A stretch of DNA of 8,470 nucleotides, taken from positions 1 to 8,470 of the forward strand of contig JALTZH010000239.1 in assembly GCA_027051265.1 (NCBI GenBank). Reading direction: 5' to 3'. This document shows positions 37 to 8,119 of this stretch, piece by piece. Source of the stretch: an archaeon (GTDB lineage Archaea; Hydrothermarchaeota; Hydrothermarchaeia; JALTZZ01; JALUTC01). The translations under genes were made by a program, and so were the position numbers. Numbering within the stretch: the first letter of the stretch is position 1; every line of letters starts with the position of its first letter. The notes under the pieces are model-generated. The model did no database searches. It was not told where the DNA came from and worked only from the letters and a program-made list of their open reading frames with translations.

Positions 37-747
37 ATGTACGAAATTTCCATAATAATGCCCTGTTATAAAGGAGAGGATTTTATTGAAAAAAGTATAC
101 ATACGGTTGAAAGAATAGTCTCCAACTTTTCCAAAAGCTTTGAGATTATTGTTGTGATCGATGGTTTCGTAGATAAAACGTATGAAAAAGCTAAGCGTCT
201 TGAAAATGTTTATAAAAACTTGAAGGTTATAGGTTATAAAAGAAATATTGGAAAAGGCTTTGCCATAAAATATGGATTTAAATATGCTTCTGGAAAATAC
301 GTTTTATTTTTCGATTCCGATTTGGAGATACATCCCGAATGCATTAAAATAGGTCTTAATTATATAAAGAAAGGATATGATATTGCAATAGCTTCAAAGA
401 GGCATAGATTTTCCAGGATTGAATATTCACGGTTTAGGAGATTCCTAAGCCTATGTTATAATATATTTTTAAGGTGTCTTTTTAACATAAGTTTAAGAGA
501 TACACAAACAGGATTGAAAATTTTTAGAAAAGAGATCTTGAACAGTATTTTAAGCAGATCCATTATTAGAAAGTATGCGTTTGATGTTGAACTCCTTGTA
601 TTAGCTAATAAGATGAAATATAGAATTATTGAATTCCCAGTAATCATTAAGAGTAATAGAAAGGGATTTCCTATGAGAGAGGTATTTTATATCCTTAGAG
701 ACACTTTAATAATTGCATATAGATTATATTTTAAGAAATATGATTAA
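37..747 (+). CDS. Family 2 glycosyltransferase (dolichol-phosphate sugar synthase-like)
   Basis: A 236-aa GT-A fold inverting glycosyltransferase, expected to move a sugar from a nucleotide donor to a polyprenyl-phosphate or other lipid/glycan acceptor at the inner face of the membrane. The N-terminal strand SIIMPCYKGED is followed by the nucleotide-binding Asp in VIDGF (about residue 42). Next come RNIGKGFA (70-77) and the metal-binding DSD (93-95). The DTQTGLK motif (155-161) and FDVELL (182-187) are typical of DPM1-like GT2 enzymes. The length fits a DPM1-type catalytic domain, and no C-terminal membrane segment is visible, so it is probably soluble or peripheral. Start at 37 is supported by GAGGT. 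It is the first of four tightly linked + strand genes that include another glycosyltransferase, which points to surface-glycan synthesis. Donor and acceptor cannot be read from sequence. The family call is firm; the dolichol-phosphate specificity is inferred. Confidence 0.93.
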   Translation: MYEISIIMPCYKGEDFIEKSIHTVERIVSNFSKSFEIIVVIDGFVDKTYEKAKRLENVYKNLKVIGYKRNIGKGFAIKYGFKYASGKYVLFFDSDLEIHPECIKIGLNYIKKGYDIAIASKRHRFSRIEYSRFRRFLSLCYNIFLRCLFNISLRDTQTGLKIFRKEILNSILSRSIIRKYAFDVELLVLANKMKYRIIEFPVIIKSNRKGFPMREVFYILRDTLIIAYRLYFKKYD

Positions 748-1714
748 GGGAGCTTTTGTATTGAATTATAAGGCTTTGGATGAGAGAATTTACAAATACG
801 GTTTTAAGGAGTTATTCTTCAGTCTGGATACGCCTATAGAACTTTTGAAAGATATGAGAAGAAAATTTCGAATAATACTGGAATTTAAGCCCTTTGAATC
901 GAATGGAAAATATATCACAAACATATATAATGAAAAGGAAGATTTAAAAGCGTTATCATGTCCTACCGATATAGAAAATTGGGAGAGAAATATTGAAAAG
1001 TTGAGAGAAAAATTGTCATATGTTGATGCTATTGCGTTGGATTTTGTGAGATTTCCATCTTTCTCAAATGGAAAATTCTTCCTTTCATGTTTCTGTAAAA
1101 ATTGTGAAAGATTTGCAAAAGATTTAAGATATGATTTTAACATTCTAAAAGATTCCGTCATTAAATTTTTAAAGCTTGATTTAAAAGGTGCGAGTTTATG
1201 GTTTGAATATAGGAGAAAAGTTCTCGAGGAGTATTTAAAATATATCAAAAAACGTATAAATATAGAAGTAAGAGCTTTTGTTTTCACACCAACCCTCTCA
1301 TATTTTGTCGGTCAGGATTATAAAACATTTCTAAATTATTTGCATAAGTTACATCCAATGATATATCCCGAAGGAAATCTTGGACCAGCATGTATTGGAT
1401 ATGAAATATATCATTTTTCAAAACTATTAAATATTGATGTTTCAAAAGTATATGAAATATTGAACATTAATATTCCAAATCTGCCAAGAACGAGAGAAGA
1501 TTTATATGAGAAAGGAATGCCAAACGATATAATAAGGTATGAGATTGAAAAATGTAAGATTTATGGTATGGAAAGAATTGAGCCGATAATTACATGTATA
1601 AAAATAACTTCCGATGAGTTAAAAATCAGGTTGGATAAATGTAAAGAGGCAAATGTTAAATACATTCATTTGTTTGGATATCCATCCGAGGCAATTTTCT
1701 GTTTAAGTTTATGA
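740..1714 (+). CDS. GHL-type TIM-barrel protein, putative glycoside hydrolase
   Basis: About 324 aa from the ATG at 740, which overlaps the previous gene by 8 nt. An in-frame ATG at 713 would add nine residues, and a TTG at 761 follows a GGGAG. I prefer 740 because GAFVL looks like the first barrel strand. Successive strand-like segments follow: ELFFSLD (24-30), RIILEF (44-49), VDAIALDFVRFP (95-106), VRAFVF (177-182), PMIYPEG (206-212) and YIHLFGY (308-314). The DAIALDFVRFP motif, with Asp/Arg at a strand end, and the following CxCxxC cluster (117-122) resemble uncharacterised glycosidase-like (GHL/DUF4015-type) barrels, where such acidic residues are proposed as catalytic. No signal peptide is seen, so it appears cytoplasmic. 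Its place between a GT2 and an MFS transporter suggests glycan trimming or turnover. The fold call is moderately firm; activity and substrate are unknown. Confidence 0.72.
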   Translation: MIKGAFVLNYKALDERIYKYGFKELFFSLDTPIELLKDMRRKFRIILEFKPFESNGKYITNIYNEKEDLKALSCPTDIENWERNIEKLREKLSYVDAIALDFVRFPSFSNGKFFLSCFCKNCERFAKDLRYDFNILKDSVIKFLKLDLKGASLWFEYRRKVLEEYLKYIKKRINIEVRAFVFTPTLSYFVGQDYKTFLNYLHKLHPMIYPEGNLGPACIGYEIYHFSKLLNIDVSKVYEILNINIPNLPRTREDLYEKGMPNDIIRYEIEKCKIYGMERIEPIITCIKITSDELKIRLDKCKEANVKYIHLFGYPSEAIFCLSL

Positions 1715-1721
1715 AAAATAC

Positions 1722-2807
1722 ATGCTGAAAATCATTCTTCCAATATCGATTTCACTATTTTTTCTAATGTTTGCATACAATTCCGTTGAATCAATTTTAC
1801 CCCTTAAAACGTATGGTACCGATATTTATGAATATGTAACGTTATGCTTATCAATTGTATATTTAACGCTTACGTTATTTAACATAATTTCGGGATATCT
1901 TGTTAGTATAAAACCCGCCGGTAGCTTAATAATTTTTGGACCAATAGGTTATTTTTTGTTTTCATTCTCATTCTTATATCAGAATATATATTTTTGGATT
2001 GTTTCATCCATAATTTTAGGAATAACCGCTTCAATATATTGGATATCTTTAAAAGCTTTAATTTTCAGAGAGATTGAAAGGAAACATTGGGGAAAAGCTT
2101 TTGGTCTTACAACATTGATAACATTATTGGGAAGTGGTTTGGGCCCATTTATATTATTTAAAAAGTATTCATTATTAAATACAATTTTGGAAATTTCTTT
2201 GATTTTATCACTATTTTCAATTCTACCCCTGATATTTCTCAAAAATAAAGGGAGAGACATGAAGAATAGGCATGGAATCACTTTTCACATATTAAGTGAG
2301 AAAAAGCTCCTTCTATATTCGTTGGCAGCATATTCATTATCCGTTTACTTACCGTTTATAATAATTGTTATTCCATACATTTCGAGTAGTGAAAAAATTC
2401 TTGGAGAATACAGATTGATATCATATTCATTACCCGGAATGCTCTCACTTTTAGGAGGAATAATATATGATAAATATAAAAAAATAATTCCGGTATTTCT
2501 AATAATTGCAACTCTATCGATAATGTTGATAAATTATAACTTATTATTCCTCGGATTTATTCTCACATCTTCAATATCTCTCGCATCGCCTGGAATACAA
2601 GCATTATTGGGAGAAATAGTTCCCAAAAAATATTTGGGAGCAACATTAGGTTTCATAGGATTTTTGTCGGGAATTGGTGTATCATTGAATATTTATATTT
2701 TTGCATATATTCTTTCAAATTTAAATCTTATACATGCATTGGTTTATGCTGCATTAAATCTATTTTTAGCATCGATTTTAATTAGTTATATTCTTAGAAA
2801 AATATGA
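1722..2807 (+). CDS. MFS-type transporter, 12 predicted TM segments
   Basis: A 361-aa, almost wholly hydrophobic protein with about twelve membrane helices, roughly at 4-20, 38-60, 68-84, 88-110, 125-146, 155-173, 196-220, 232-249, 256-270, 274-294, 306-330 and 336-358. A charged central loop (174-195, KNKGRDMKNRHG) separates the two six-helix halves. Major-facilitator traits include a degenerate motif A after TM8 (GGIIYDKYKK, 245-254), KHWGKAFGLTTL entering TM5, and PKKYLGATLGFIGFL entering TM11. At 361 aa it is shorter than the usual 400 or so. It starts 7 nt after the preceding stop, with no clear Shine-Dalgarno, and its TGA overlaps the ATG of the next gene (ATGA), so translation is probably coupled. 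Lying among glycosyltransferases, it could export a glycan unit or import a sugar or breakdown product. The substrate is not deducible; the superfamily call is fairly safe. Confidence 0.82.
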   Translation: MLKIILPISISLFFLMFAYNSVESILPLKTYGTDIYEYVTLCLSIVYLTLTLFNIISGYLVSIKPAGSLIIFGPIGYFLFSFSFLYQNIYFWIVSSIILGITASIYWISLKALIFREIERKHWGKAFGLTTLITLLGSGLGPFILFKKYSLLNTILEISLILSLFSILPLIFLKNKGRDMKNRHGITFHILSEKKLLLYSLAAYSLSVYLPFIIIVIPYISSSEKILGEYRLISYSLPGMLSLLGGIIYDKYKKIIPVFLIIATLSIMLINYNLLFLGFILTSSISLASPGIQALLGEIVPKKYLGATLGFIGFLSGIGVSLNIYIFAYILSNLNLIHALVYAALNLFLASILISYILRKI

Positions 2808-3880
2808 AAATTCTTTGGTTAAATTGGAGAGACATAAAAAATCCCGAGGCTGGTGGAGCTGAAATATATACGCATGAGATTGCAAAAAGATTGGTGAGAA
2901 AAGGTTATGAGATAACACTTCTCACATCCAAATTTAAGAATTGTAAAGCAATGGAAGTTATAGATGGTATTAAAATTATAAGATTGGGAAGAAAATATAC
3001 CGTATATGAAAAGGCAGAAAGGTTTTGTAAACGTCATTCCAAGGAATACGATTTAATAATCGATGAAATAAATACGAGACCATTTTTAACACCGAAATAT
3101 GTCAATAAATGTAAGATTGTTGCATTGATACATCAGCTAGCAAGGGAATTCTGGTTTTATGAAACACCATTTCCAATAAGTTTCGTAGGTTATTACATAC
3201 TTGAGAATATGTGGTTGAAGAATTACGTTGATATATCAACAATAACGGTTTCTGATTCTACGGCTAAAGATCTTAAACGCTTAGGTTTTAAAAGAGTATA
3301 TATTGTATATAATGGATTGAATGTTACACCCGTTAATAAAATCCCTGAGAAATCGGATAAGCCAACTATAATATTTGTTGGTAGAATGAAAAGAGCAAAA
3401 AAGCCGCAGGATGTAATTGAGGCGTTTAAAATAATCAAGCAAGAAATTAAAGATGCTGAGTTATGGATGGTTGGTGATGGTTATATGAGAAAAATACTCG
3501 AAAGAAAAAATGTTAAAGATGTGAAATTTTTCGGCTACCTAAAAAAAGAGCAAAAGGATGAATTTGTCAAACATGCTTGGGTTATTGCCGTTCCTGGAGT
3601 GAGAGAAGGTTGGGGTCAAGTTGTTACCGATGCAAATGCTTTAGGAACTCCTGCAGTTGGTTATAATATACCAGGTTTAAGGGATTCGATAAAACATGGT
3701 TACAATGGTTTGCTCGTTGATTGTAATCCCAAAGCATTAGCCGAGGCTATAATTAAGATATTGTTGGATGATAATTTAAGAAGGACATTGAGCAGAAATG
3801 CAATTAAATGGGCTAGGAGATTTAGCTGGGATAAAAGTGCTGAGAAATTCGAAAGAATAATGTTAACCTTAACCCATTAA
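2804..3880 (+). CDS. Family 4 (GT-B) glycosyltransferase
   Basis: A 358-aa retaining GT-B glycosyltransferase with two Rossmann domains. The N-domain begins MKILWLNWRD, with the acceptor-side motif PEAGGAE (14-20) and HQ (110-111). The C-domain begins near residue 187 with PTIIFVGRMKRAKKP, where R194 and K199/K200 probably contact donor phosphate. AELWMVGDG (218-226) and KFFGYL (241-246) follow. The E-x7-E donor-binding element reads EGWGQVVTD (268-276), so the second acidic residue is Asp rather than the usual Glu. GTPAVGYNIPGLRDSI (281-296) and HGYNGLLV (298-305) are typical of the family. The length is normal and no membrane segment is seen, so it is cytoplasmic, possibly membrane-associated. 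It overlaps the MFS gene by 4 nt and closes the + strand unit. It would add a sugar to a lipid-linked glycan; the specificity is unknown. Confidence 0.93.
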   Translation: MKILWLNWRDIKNPEAGGAEIYTHEIAKRLVRKGYEITLLTSKFKNCKAMEVIDGIKIIRLGRKYTVYEKAERFCKRHSKEYDLIIDEINTRPFLTPKYVNKCKIVALIHQLAREFWFYETPFPISFVGYYILENMWLKNYVDISTITVSDSTAKDLKRLGFKRVYIVYNGLNVTPVNKIPEKSDKPTIIFVGRMKRAKKPQDVIEAFKIIKQEIKDAELWMVGDGYMRKILERKNVKDVKFFGYLKKEQKDEFVKHAWVIAVPGVREGWGQVVTDANALGTPAVGYNIPGLRDSIKHGYNGLLVDCNPKALAEAIIKILLDDNLRRTLSRNAIKWARRFSWDKSAEKFERIMLTLTH

Positions 3881-3887
3881 TCATAAG

Positions 3888-3900
3888 TAAGTTTTCTTTA
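3888..3900 (+). terminator. Possible oligo-T terminator after the GT4 gene
   Basis: The + strand just past the GT4 stop carries a T-rich stretch (GTTTTCTTTA, 3891-3900). It lies in the 17-bp gap between two convergent genes and runs into the end of the TOPRIM gene. Archaeal transcription often ends at such short T tracts. There is no hairpin, and the tract is weak. Confidence 0.22.
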
Positions 3901-4560
3901 TGTTAAATTATCTATAACTTCTTTTATCCTTAACACATCTCTTAAATCAATACTACATTTGCTTAAGTATATTTGAATTCTTGGTTTTTCTTTATGAAGG
4001 AGAATGATTTTTAGTGGAAGAATCAAACTCGCTTTGGTTAAATTTTTATTCCTAATAATTTCGCATAATTCGTTTTCGATTTCCAACCTTTGCCTTTCCA
4101 AAAGTAATGATTCGAATTCATTCGAGATGTTCTTATTGCATAGCTTAACATCCGTTCCTAAAAATATCACATATATTTTAAATTTTTCATATTTATATTC
4201 ATGCTTATTAGAATCCATATGAAAGTTTGGAAATTCTTCCCGAAGACGTTCCAACTCTCTGTTAACGATATGTTTAACATCGCTATCGAAGTATAAAAAT
4301 ATGGCAGCAATGTTATCTTCATGAAACCTTTTATAATGTTTTAGAGTCAATTTAAAAATCTTTAACGCATTCGCATATCCGTTAGCAACATATGTATATA
4401 ATTTTTTGCCACGTATATTATAATGGAACATGAATTGTTCATCGTTAAGAAATGTTATGCTTCTAAAATATTTTATAAGCTTTGTGTTTAATTCCATTTC
4501 AATGTAATAACGAATAGCTTCCATTATTTCGGTGTCTTCTGCTATAATTATTGTACCCAT
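3898..4560 (-). CDS. TOPRIM-like protein, partner of the adjacent OLD-type ATPase
   Basis: A 220-aa protein starting TIIIAEDTEIMEAI, a strand-acid-helix pattern matching the TOPRIM entry with E8 as the conserved Glu. The second TOPRIM element is AIFLYFDSD (86-94), a hydrophobic strand ending in DxD (D92, D94). KIYVIFLGTDV (128-138) is likely the next core strand, and EFESLLLER (148-156) starts a helical C-terminal half. Such domains in OLD, GajA and AriB proteins coordinate metal for nucleic-acid cleavage; nuclease activity here is inferred. It begins 1 nt after the ATPase stop, and GGAGAT inside the last ATPase codons can act as Shine-Dalgarno. The two proteins are probably made together and form a complex. 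Its size is near archaeal TOPRIM-like DUF3226 proteins, and smaller than AriB (DUF4435). I cannot assign it to a named family with certainty. Confidence 0.66.
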   Translation of the reverse strand: MGTIIIAEDTEIMEAIRYYIEMELNTKLIKYFRSITFLNDEQFMFHYNIRGKKLYTYVANGYANALKIFKLTLKHYKRFHEDNIAAIFLYFDSDVKHIVNRELERLREEFPNFHMDSNKHEYKYEKFKIYVIFLGTDVKLCNKNISNEFESLLLERQRLEIENELCEIIRNKNLTKASLILPLKIILLHKEKPRIQIYLSKCSIDLRDVLRIKEVIDNLT

Positions 4561-4561
4561 A

Positions 4562-5494
4562 TCATCTTATATCTCCTCTCAATTTTAATATCTCTTCCGC
4601 TTCATCCTTATCGTATATTTCATATTCTCCCGTTTTATATAAATAAATGATTAAAACATCATCACTCTCTCTAATAATCTCTTCTATTAATTCCTTGTTC
4701 TGAGTTGTGAAGAAGAATTGCGTATTTGCATTGTTTATCAATTCGACAAATTTTGGAATGAGATCGTAATGAAATCCCGATTCGATATCATCGAATAGGA
4801 TTATGTCTGAGAAATGTGTTATAATTGCAAACGTTAGATATGTTTTAAAGCCTGTTCCTAATAAATCTATTGGTAATCTTATACCAGTTCCCTCTTCTTC
4901 ATAATATAGTAATGTTCTATCACCTTTTTTTATGAAAAGAAGATTTCTTATGGATGGATTCAATTTCCTTAAAAATTTCAGAACCTCAACATCTTTCATG
5001 TTTTCCATCAATTCTCCCCATAAATTTTCCAATCGAATGTTCGATATTATACTATAATTTAAGTAGCAGTATTTGATATTAATAAAATTATATTGAAATC
5101 TAAATATATAATCAAGTAAAGATGCGCCACTGATTTTAGAATTATCTAGCATAAGGTTAAAGTAAATATTCTTATCATGTTTTACTTCAATATTATGTTC
5201 ATCGATTTTTATACTTATATACGGAGGAAATTTTCGTTCCTTAAATAGTAGTTTATTATCAAAGTATTTGTCAAAAATTATTCGCATTATCTCATGTTGT
5301 GCCAATAAATTGTAAATTTTATCAATACCATAACCCTTAGCTATTATTAATAGGATGAGATAAATTGCTTCCAAAATTGAAGTCTTACCGGTATTATTTG
5401 ATCCCAAAATAATATTAACCTTTTTAGGTTCGAATTCTATTCGCTTAATCCTTTTAAAATTTTCAATACGTATCCTTTTTATTTTATTATTCAT
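4562..5494 (-). CDS. OLD/RecF-type AAA (ABC-class) ATPase
   Basis: A 310-aa SMC/RecF-like ATPase. IENFKRIKRIEF (10-21) is the classic first strand, and Walker A is GSNNTGKTS (31-39). A divergent insert of about 170 residues, with no obvious coiled coil, precedes the signature-like LLGTGFK (211-217). Walker B is IILFDDIESGFH (231-242), and the H-loop region reads FFFTTQNKEL (260-269). Two positions are unusual: the residue after the Walker B Asp is Asp rather than the catalytic Glu, and the H-loop His is Gln (Q265). The protein is small compared with full OLD nucleases because the TOPRIM domain sits in the separate next gene. It lies 4 nt after the membrane-protein gene, with no clear Shine-Dalgarno, so it is probably read through from that gene. 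A role as sensor/regulator of the TOPRIM partner, as in PARIS or OLD systems, is inferred; a DNA-repair role is possible. Confidence 0.85.
   Translation of the reverse strand: MNNKIKRIRIENFKRIKRIEFEPKKVNIILGSNNTGKTSILEAIYLILLIIAKGYGIDKIYNLLAQHEIMRIIFDKYFDNKLLFKERKFPPYISIKIDEHNIEVKHDKNIYFNLMLDNSKISGASLLDYIFRFQYNFINIKYCYLNYSIISNIRLENLWGELMENMKDVEVLKFLRKLNPSIRNLLFIKKGDRTLLYYEEEGTGIRLPIDLLGTGFKTYLTFAIITHFSDIILFDDIESGFHYDLIPKFVELINNANTQFFFTTQNKELIEEIIRESDDVLIIYLYKTGEYEIYDKDEAEEILKLRGDIR
4571..4576 (-). promoter_or_regulatory. Shine-Dalgarno for the TOPRIM gene inside the ATPase 3' end
   Basis: On the minus strand GGAGAT lies about 10 nt before the ATG at 4560, within the codons for the last residues (R-G-D-I-R) of the ATPase. 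It supports the TOPRIM start and coupled synthesis of the two proteins. Confidence 0.45.
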
Positions 5495-7498: not shown

Positions 7499-7799
7499 TT
7501 AAAAATTCCAAAAAGTCTCTTTGCTCAACTTTTCCTTAGTTACAATTCTTTCATCCATCAATTTCTCAAAGTCTCTATCTATCTTACTACATAACGATAT
7601 CAACTCAGCTATATCGTGAGTTTTTCTAAAAGGTTTGTTGTGGAAAATTAAAAATGCTTTATAGTAATTTTTCCACAGCTTGTTGAGCATGAAAACAAAT
7701 CGCATCCGTAACAGGGTTTTCTGTATTTAGTTCATCCTTTGCTACTTTCATATCATTTTCAGCCTTTTTTATCCATTTCTTAGCTCTTTCTAAATTCAT
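7499..7799 (-). pseudogene. Frameshifted HEPN-domain gene downstream of MNT
   Basis: From the ATG at 7799 the frame reads MNLERAKKWIKKAENDMKVA and on to CFHAQQAVEKLL, an HEPN (COG2250-like) N-terminal half. It then hits TAA at 7661-7659. The family sequence continues in another frame as KAFLIFHNKPFRKTHDIAEL to a stop at 7499. One extra base between about 7673 and 7661 explains the break. The ATG overlaps the MNT stop (ATGA), so it was translationally coupled to MNT. The C-terminus is also abnormal: after DFEKLMDE the usual RYP segment and last helix are missing, replaced by IVTKEKLSKETFWNF, which resembles MNT residues 47-56. The joined product would be about 100 aa, against a usual 120-130. 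HEPN proteins pair with MNT proteins in toxin-antitoxin modules, but no R-x4-6-H RNase motif is visible here. Sequencing error at the A-run cannot be excluded. Confidence 0.78.
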
Positions 7800-8119
7800 A
7801 TTAAAATCCCTTCATTAAGTGCAACAGAACTAATTGTATAACTATATCTCCTTTCTTCATATAACTCATCTGCTGACTTAATAATTATATCATTGGGTAT
7901 GTTCAATCTTGCAAATATAATTTTTAGTTTTACAATAAGAGCTATCTTTATTTCATTGCTTATCTTTTCCTTGGTAACAATTAACAAATCCCAATCTGAA
8001 TCTTCTTTATAATCTCCTCTAGCACGTGAGCCGAATAAAATTATTTTGTCTATCTCAATATTATACTTTTTTGCCACGTTTAGGATTGTTTCCTTAATAA
8101 GCTTTAACTTTTTCTCCAT
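7796..8119 (-). CDS. MNT-type minimal nucleotidyltransferase (HEPN partner)
   Basis: A 107-aa nucleotidyltransferase of the MNT/COG1708 group with the pol-beta fold signature: ILFGSRARGD (27-36) followed by EDSDWDLLIV (39-48), giving GS...DxD with D42 and D44 as metal ligands. D77 in NIPNDIII (73-80) is a plausible third acidic residue. The length is normal and the frame intact. In studied MNT/HEPN modules the MNT protein neutralises its HEPN partner by transferring AMP to it, so it acts as cytoplasmic antitoxin; that role here is inferred. A strong GGAGG lies 8 nt before the ATG, inside the end of the upstream HEPN remnant. Its TGA overlaps the ATG of the downstream HEPN remnant. Both neighbouring HEPN copies are broken, so it may be an orphan antitoxin that has outlived its toxins, or may serve HEPN proteins elsewhere. 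Confidence 0.9.
   Translation of the reverse strand: MEKKLKLIKETILNVAKKYNIEIDKIILFGSRARGDYKEDSDWDLLIVTKEKISNEIKIALIVKLKIIFARLNIPNDIIIKSADELYEERRYSYTISSVALNEGILI

Follow-up and report, generated by a model that had tools for sequence, protein, structure and literature searches.

A diverged archaeal OLD-like ABC ATPase encoded next to a separate DUF3226-type TOPRIM protein

The OLD and PARIS systems couple an ABC ATPase with a TOPRIM nuclease; that of PARIS, AriB, cuts tRNA (PMC12409363, PMC10568477). OLD and GajA carry both parts in one chain, whereas PARIS has them on separate adjacent genes, the ATPase AriA (a 464-aa chain in solved entries) being accompanied by a TOPRIM partner of the DUF4435 type. 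The published rule for PARIS demands an AAA_15 or AAA_21 match at the cut-off together with a DUF4435 (AriB) gene with a score of at least 27 (PMC9122126). AbiL also has a two-gene layout (AbiLi and AbiLii), and PADLOC lists as a candidate system, under the name PDC-M38, an AAA ATPase (M38A) together with a DUF3226 protein (M38B). For the DUF3226 family a PDB structure with the TOPRIM fold has been available from 2007 onwards (entry 2p62); neither DUF3226 nor PDC-M38 is named in any paper that we found in the open literature. ATPase-TOPRIM pairs are reportedly covered by the ABC ATPase classification of Krishnan et al. (NAR 2020). The archaeal gene pair described here is a diverged member of this widespread PDC-M38 module.

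The window, meaning the whole stretch of DNA that was analysed, is a complete contig of 8,470 bases from a genome of 1.46 Mb in 257 contigs. The archaeal 16S model found no match in this fragmented genome, and archaeal RadA was therefore taken as the marker instead; two genes (G000:C131:1778-2698 and G000:C43:12241-13149) scored above its curated cut-off, one RadA lying far above it, which bears out the archaeal origin proposed in the initial annotation. That annotation had also described an ABC-class ATPase with the Walker A sequence GSNNTGKTS, followed after 1 nt by a 220-aa open reading frame with E8 and a DSD sequence at residues 92-94. All of this was confirmed, and both reading frames proved to lie on the minus strand, a detail that it had lacked. 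The ATPase gene comes first, with a single nucleotide between its stop codon and the ATG of the second gene (Table 1).

Table 1. Coordinates in the window of the gene pair, its motifs and the upstream gene
Feature	Position	Strand	Remarks
ABC-class (RecF/Rad50/OLD-like) ATPase, 310 aa	4562..5494	-	Pfam and PADLOC matches; grouped by phmmer and tree with ATPases adjoining a DUF3226 TOPRIM gene
Walker A, GSNNTGKTS, residues 31-39	5378..5404	-	N33 and K37 invariant in 10-sequence alignment
Walker B, IILFDDIES, residues 231-239	4778..4804	-	D236 replaces the usual catalytic Glu
C-terminal LRGDIR, residues 305-310	4565..4582	-	(D/E)xR ending common to TOPRIM-partnered ATPases
Diverged DUF3226-type TOPRIM protein, 220 aa, probable nuclease subunit	3898..4560	-	hhalign, motif columns, AlphaFold2 models
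TOPRIM motif 1, IIIAED, catalytic Glu candidate E8	4534..4551	-	E in 58/58 partners
Glycine motif ANGYAN, residues 59-64, G61 (GGK in relatives)	4369..4386	-	G in 54/58 partners
TOPRIM DxD, YFDSD, residues 90-94	4279..4293	-	D92 in 58/58 and D94 in 48/58 partners
FESLL, residues 149-153, fits DUF3226 LExL motif (E150)	4102..4116	-	Conservation of the column ≥90%; low confidence of the model in this part
517-aa membrane-protein gene	7052-5499	-	Its end lies 4 nt before the ATPase gene

The rest of the window holds genes of other kinds. On the plus strand, Pfam matches at positions 37-3880 mark what seems to be a locus for surface glycans, with genes for two glycosyltransferases, for an MFS transporter and for a putative glycosyl-hydrolase-like protein of 333 aa. 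At positions 7499-8119 a gene for an MNT-type nucleotidyltransferase (Polbeta, 2.2e-12) is followed by a HEPN fragment of 68 aa, likely the remnant of a toxin-antitoxin system. No known anti-phage system was found among these neighbours of the pair, which consist of the glycan genes and the small MNT/HEPN pair. The GC content of the pair (0.27-0.28) differs little from that of its flanks (0.28-0.34), so that base composition does not point to a recent import.

The ATPase is a member of the RecF/SMC class, with Pfam matches to AAA_21 (3.2e-16, 60.7 bits, cut-off 27) and AAA_15 (45.3 bits, cut-off 32.1). Its best PADLOC models were AbiLi (PDLC02336, 1.4e-31), PDC-M38A (3.6e-23) and AriA (1.5e-18). 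Among the NCBIfam models, Rad50 was matched, as was RecF (TIGR00611, 2.8e-14); the 53 bits obtained with this equivalog are far below its cut-off of 172, and membership of RecF was rejected. When the collected archaeal proteins were searched with phmmer, almost all of the closest ATPase relatives adjoined a DUF3226-like gene of 210-265 aa. In the ATPase tree the window protein fell on a long branch within a mostly archaeal set of 19 rows (support 98/98), where its pairing with the ATPase of locus L006 was without strong support. At L006 itself (G144), the ATPase and 265-aa TOPRIM pair is directly preceded by a gene (2504-3007) that, by eye, resembles HEPN.

Several conserved elements are kept in the ATPase. 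Both glycines of the motif LGTGFK (residues 212-217) are invariant in the alignment, H242 is present as well, and the C-terminal GDIR ends in R310, which is invariant in the 10-sequence alignment; a similar terminal motif was seen in 91 of 100 relatives. The Walker B pair (residues 235-236) reads DD, whereas 69 of the 73 relatives with a recognised motif have DE. This change is conservative, but it could slow hydrolysis.

To place the pair among its relatives, an alignment of related ATPases (A1) was used to fetch 80 genome loci and 44 viral loci. At 62 of the 68 genome loci that were scored, being those with a clear ATPase and enough sequence, a TOPRIM-like gene that opens with hhhE(G)xxD lay immediately downstream of the ATPase. 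A second alignment (A2) was made of 58 such partners and the window protein; 53 of its 59 members matched DUF3226 and 44 matched PDC-M38B. At L004 (1498-2937) and L007 (1489-2879) the related ATPase is followed by a protein of ∼150 aa that starts with VECKPDK, has a DEDP motif and is without a Pfam match, possibly a minimal TOPRIM. The related ATPases mostly measure 300-420 aa (59 of 68 have at most 420 aa) and their TOPRIM partners 185-245 aa. The 310 and 220 aa of the window pair are therefore ordinary, and the suggestion that compact size marks a separate subtype was dropped once the relatives had been measured. The pair is a diverged archaeal member of its kind; a new subtype is undemonstrated.

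The 220-aa protein is far less readily recognised than its neighbour. It has no match in Pfam, NCBIfam, PADLOC or the PDB sequences, and a single-sequence search of 100 archaeal relatives, the GTDB species set, viral contigs, plasmids and phages gave no relative at E ≤ 1e-3. The sole weak match (G019, E 0.003) is a 443-aa open reading frame that looks unrelated. The reading of the 220-aa protein as TOPRIM therefore needed evidence from profiles and from the fold. With 15 partner proteins, an hhalign comparison gave too little signal (P 0.052), and it took 87 sequences to reach a score of 25.2 (P 0.0017), in a register that aligns the GxN...DxD pattern. All 295 non-TOPRIM control reading frames scored below this value (best 21.2), and the only controls that scored higher were TOPRIM reading frames, as judged by alignment. 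Pairwise identity to the partners is only 11-21%. The four residues that are near-invariant in the partner family, E8, G61, D92 and E150, are all kept. Motif 1 departs from the family pattern in reading ED where the relatives have EG. Taken with the Asp-for-Glu exchange in the ATPase, this could mean that activity is altered.

Structure prediction led to the same family. The alignment-based AlphaFold2 model (mean pLDDT 70.5, core 85-94) had as its top match PH0156 of Pyrococcus horikoshii (2p62), with a Z-score of 13.1 versus 7.1 for the next entry and a Foldseek E-value of 1.2e-4. This model may lean on its DUF3226 alignment; the single-sequence model (pLDDT 54.7), which is free of such bias, again placed 2p62 on top (Z 9.5 versus 5.1 for the next). 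For the single-sequence model it was only VIA-align that set 2p62 apart from background, since Foldseek listed Rab/Arf GTPases and unrelated folds, none with a significant E-value. PH0156 resembles the window protein in its fold, its archaeal origin and the pairing of its close relatives with an ATPase, and is homologous (E 1.3e-46) to the DUF3226 partner at L051; the two differ in that identity is 17% and that the window protein is ∼20 residues shorter. From context, profile and fold together, the 220-aa protein is a TOPRIM protein of the DUF3226 type. The TOPRIM reading given to it in the initial annotation has thus been borne out by hhalign, by the motif columns and by both models, and the absence of a TOPRIM fold, which had been named as grounds for abandoning the proposal, was not what structure prediction gave.

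Compared with the known systems, the pair is closest to PDC-M38, with which it shares gene order, sizes, ATPase family, TOPRIM fold and near-invariant residues. The ATPase matches PDC-M38A and AAA_21 and clusters with the partnered ATPases, and the 220-aa protein has the DUF3226 fold with the near-invariant residues in place. The pair differs in that the TOPRIM protein is too diverged for any M38B model, giving no match to PF11536 or PDC-M38B by profile score, and in the DD and ED sequences of Walker B and motif 1. The initial annotation had called the pair split-OLD or PARIS-like. The description holds insofar as an OLD-like ATPase and a TOPRIM protein are found on two chains, and the ATPase reaches the cut-offs that the PARIS rule sets; the 220-aa protein, however, matches neither DUF4435 in Pfam nor AriB in PADLOC, and since the published rule demands DUF4435 the pair is not PARIS. 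The partner is of another type, and the ATPase is shorter than the AriA chain. Membership of the OLD family (classes 1-3) was likewise rejected, as the architecture is shared but the two domains form two reading frames instead of one polypeptide. AbiL, to which the pair was not assigned either, resembles it in its two-gene layout, in a similar C-terminal (D/E)xR and in AbiLi being the best PADLOC model for the ATPase. It differs in the partner, which has no AbiLii match in PADLOC up to E 10, and in the tree, where the archaeal set of the window stands apart from the main AbiL-like clade with its longer ATPases. What was known already is the kind of module (PADLOC) and the TOPRIM fold of the family (PDB); what is new is the diverged archaeal member.

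The distribution of the pair gives further clues to its role. DUF3226 was found in 44 of 394 archaeal relatives at E ≤ 0.01, 28 of these being above the cut-off, and is thus widespread and patchy. In G007, G008 and G018 the gene orthologous to the 517-aa one stands without the pair behind it (in G008 only ∼230 bases of contig remain beyond the gene), and the 220-aa protein has no match in the same-genus genome G001, which is 81% complete. The window pair is therefore sporadic and accessory. In five Thermococcus-like loci (L014, L011, L047, L061 and L064) an ABC ATPase and DUF3226 pair lies between apparent permease and ATP-binding genes of a tungstate/molybdate-type transporter operon.

Related pairs also occur on mobile elements. 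On two IMG/VR contigs (L147, L148) a related pair sits in a P2-like setting between a gpA-like replication protein (phrog_91) and a gpQ portal (phrog_68); this is the place where P2 carries old and tin, an anti-phage hotspot (PMC9122126). In E. coli MB06172 (L222, 6998-8706) a 98%-identical copy, annotated as an AAA ATPase and a DUF3226 protein and adjoining a broken portal gene, is inserted in a P4-like satellite, with psu on one side and the integrase on the other, and the psu-int site of P4 is a second defence hotspot (PMC9122126). Altogether 144 plasmid records matched the pair, and on ColRNAI-type plasmids of 3.8-4.2 kb from Klebsiella and Salmonella (L198, L199, L200) it is accompanied by little beyond replication or mobilisation genes. 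A different picture emerged for the chromosomes. Around 20 chromosomal relatives, at most 7 genes being taken per locus, 126 flanking proteins gave 9 hits to PADLOC models versus 87 for 129 proteins in control regions of the same contigs, these being coarse model counts of which the latter may be inflated by type I restriction genes. No enrichment of defence genes beside the pair was found at these 20 loci, and the Pfam content of the flanking genes was largely housekeeping. Of the initial proposal of a defence system, the occurrence of relatives in P2 and P4 hotspots and on small plasmids is thus in its favour; the bias towards defence islands that it had foreseen was absent from the 20 chromosomal loci, and the sporadic distribution is not that of universally conserved housekeeping genes. 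A defence role, although unproven, is likely. The likeliest reading is that of a lone accessory module on mobile elements, serving defence or competition between elements, rather than of a defence-island gene.

What the analysis shows is the anatomy of the module, namely its gene order, the homology of the ATPase, a TOPRIM fold with the matching active-site residues, a pairing of the two genes that hardly varies among relatives and a sporadic distribution of this copy. By analogy with OLD and PARIS, the ATPase would most likely act as sensor and gate, while the TOPRIM protein would cut nucleic acid. The ATPase is expected to dimerise or oligomerise on ATP through its RecF/Rad50-type domain, and the TOPRIM protein may bind it, perhaps via the conserved C-terminal (D/E)xR. 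Once an invader is sensed, E8, D92 and D94 would hold the metal with which DNA or RNA is cut, and the invader would be blocked or the cell stopped. Overall, we consider it fairly probable that the pair is a diverged archaeal module of an OLD-like ABC ATPase and a separate DUF3226-type TOPRIM protein that most likely serves to ward off viruses or plasmids, or in the competition of mobile elements with each other. There is a small chance that it stands for a separate lineage of TOPRIM nucleases gated by an ATPase, confined to archaea and having a trigger and a target of its own (archaeal tRNA, say, or a virus-specific nucleic acid), in which ATP would be bound but poorly hydrolysed since the catalytic Glu is replaced by Asp.

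Other functions have to be weighed against this reading. The RecF and Rad50 matches of the ATPase, the housekeeping genes around the chromosomal relatives and the location of the pair within a metal-transporter operon in several Thermococcus-like genomes would all fit a nucleic-acid maintenance or repair pair, akin to the ABC ATPase RecF and the TOPRIM protein RecR, in which the ATPase loads on DNA, the TOPRIM protein aids processing and no invader is opposed. We regard this as unlikely, because such a pair is hard to reconcile with a sporadic rather than conserved distribution, with relatives that 4-kb plasmids and the P2 and P4 hotspots carry as cargo, and with a RecF score so far from the curated cut-off.

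The same plasmids, of which the pair is near-sole cargo, and its tight two-gene arrangement could also point to plasmid addiction, the TOPRIM protein being a constitutive toxin that the ATPase restrains so that the element is kept. In the analogous PARIS system, however, removing either one of the genes caused no toxicity and cost the cell its defence, by which a toxin-antitoxin mechanism was excluded there (PMC9122126). With the ATPase gene in first place and a coupling that is nearly invariant, as in OLD-like pairs, we judge a toxin-antitoxin-like role here to be rather improbable. It is very improbable, and already largely refuted, that the 220-aa protein is no TOPRIM at all and that its motifs match by coincidence. 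The lack of a match in any profile library and the low identity to the partners would allow this, but the hhalign score above the controls, the motif columns and the top rank of 2p62 for both models argue against it, as does the fact that nearly all relatives have a TOPRIM gene at the same position.

These results carry a caution, in that small size is no basis for inferring a subtype. They also show that archaeal members of the ATPase and DUF3226 module can escape profile libraries when they have diverged, the partner in the window having been recovered by context and fold alone. The module occurs in bacteria and archaea, in the hotspots of P2 and P4, and on many small plasmids of clinical origin. 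Since it occurs so widely and yet DUF3226 and PDC-M38 are unnamed in open papers, it is a good target for a direct test.
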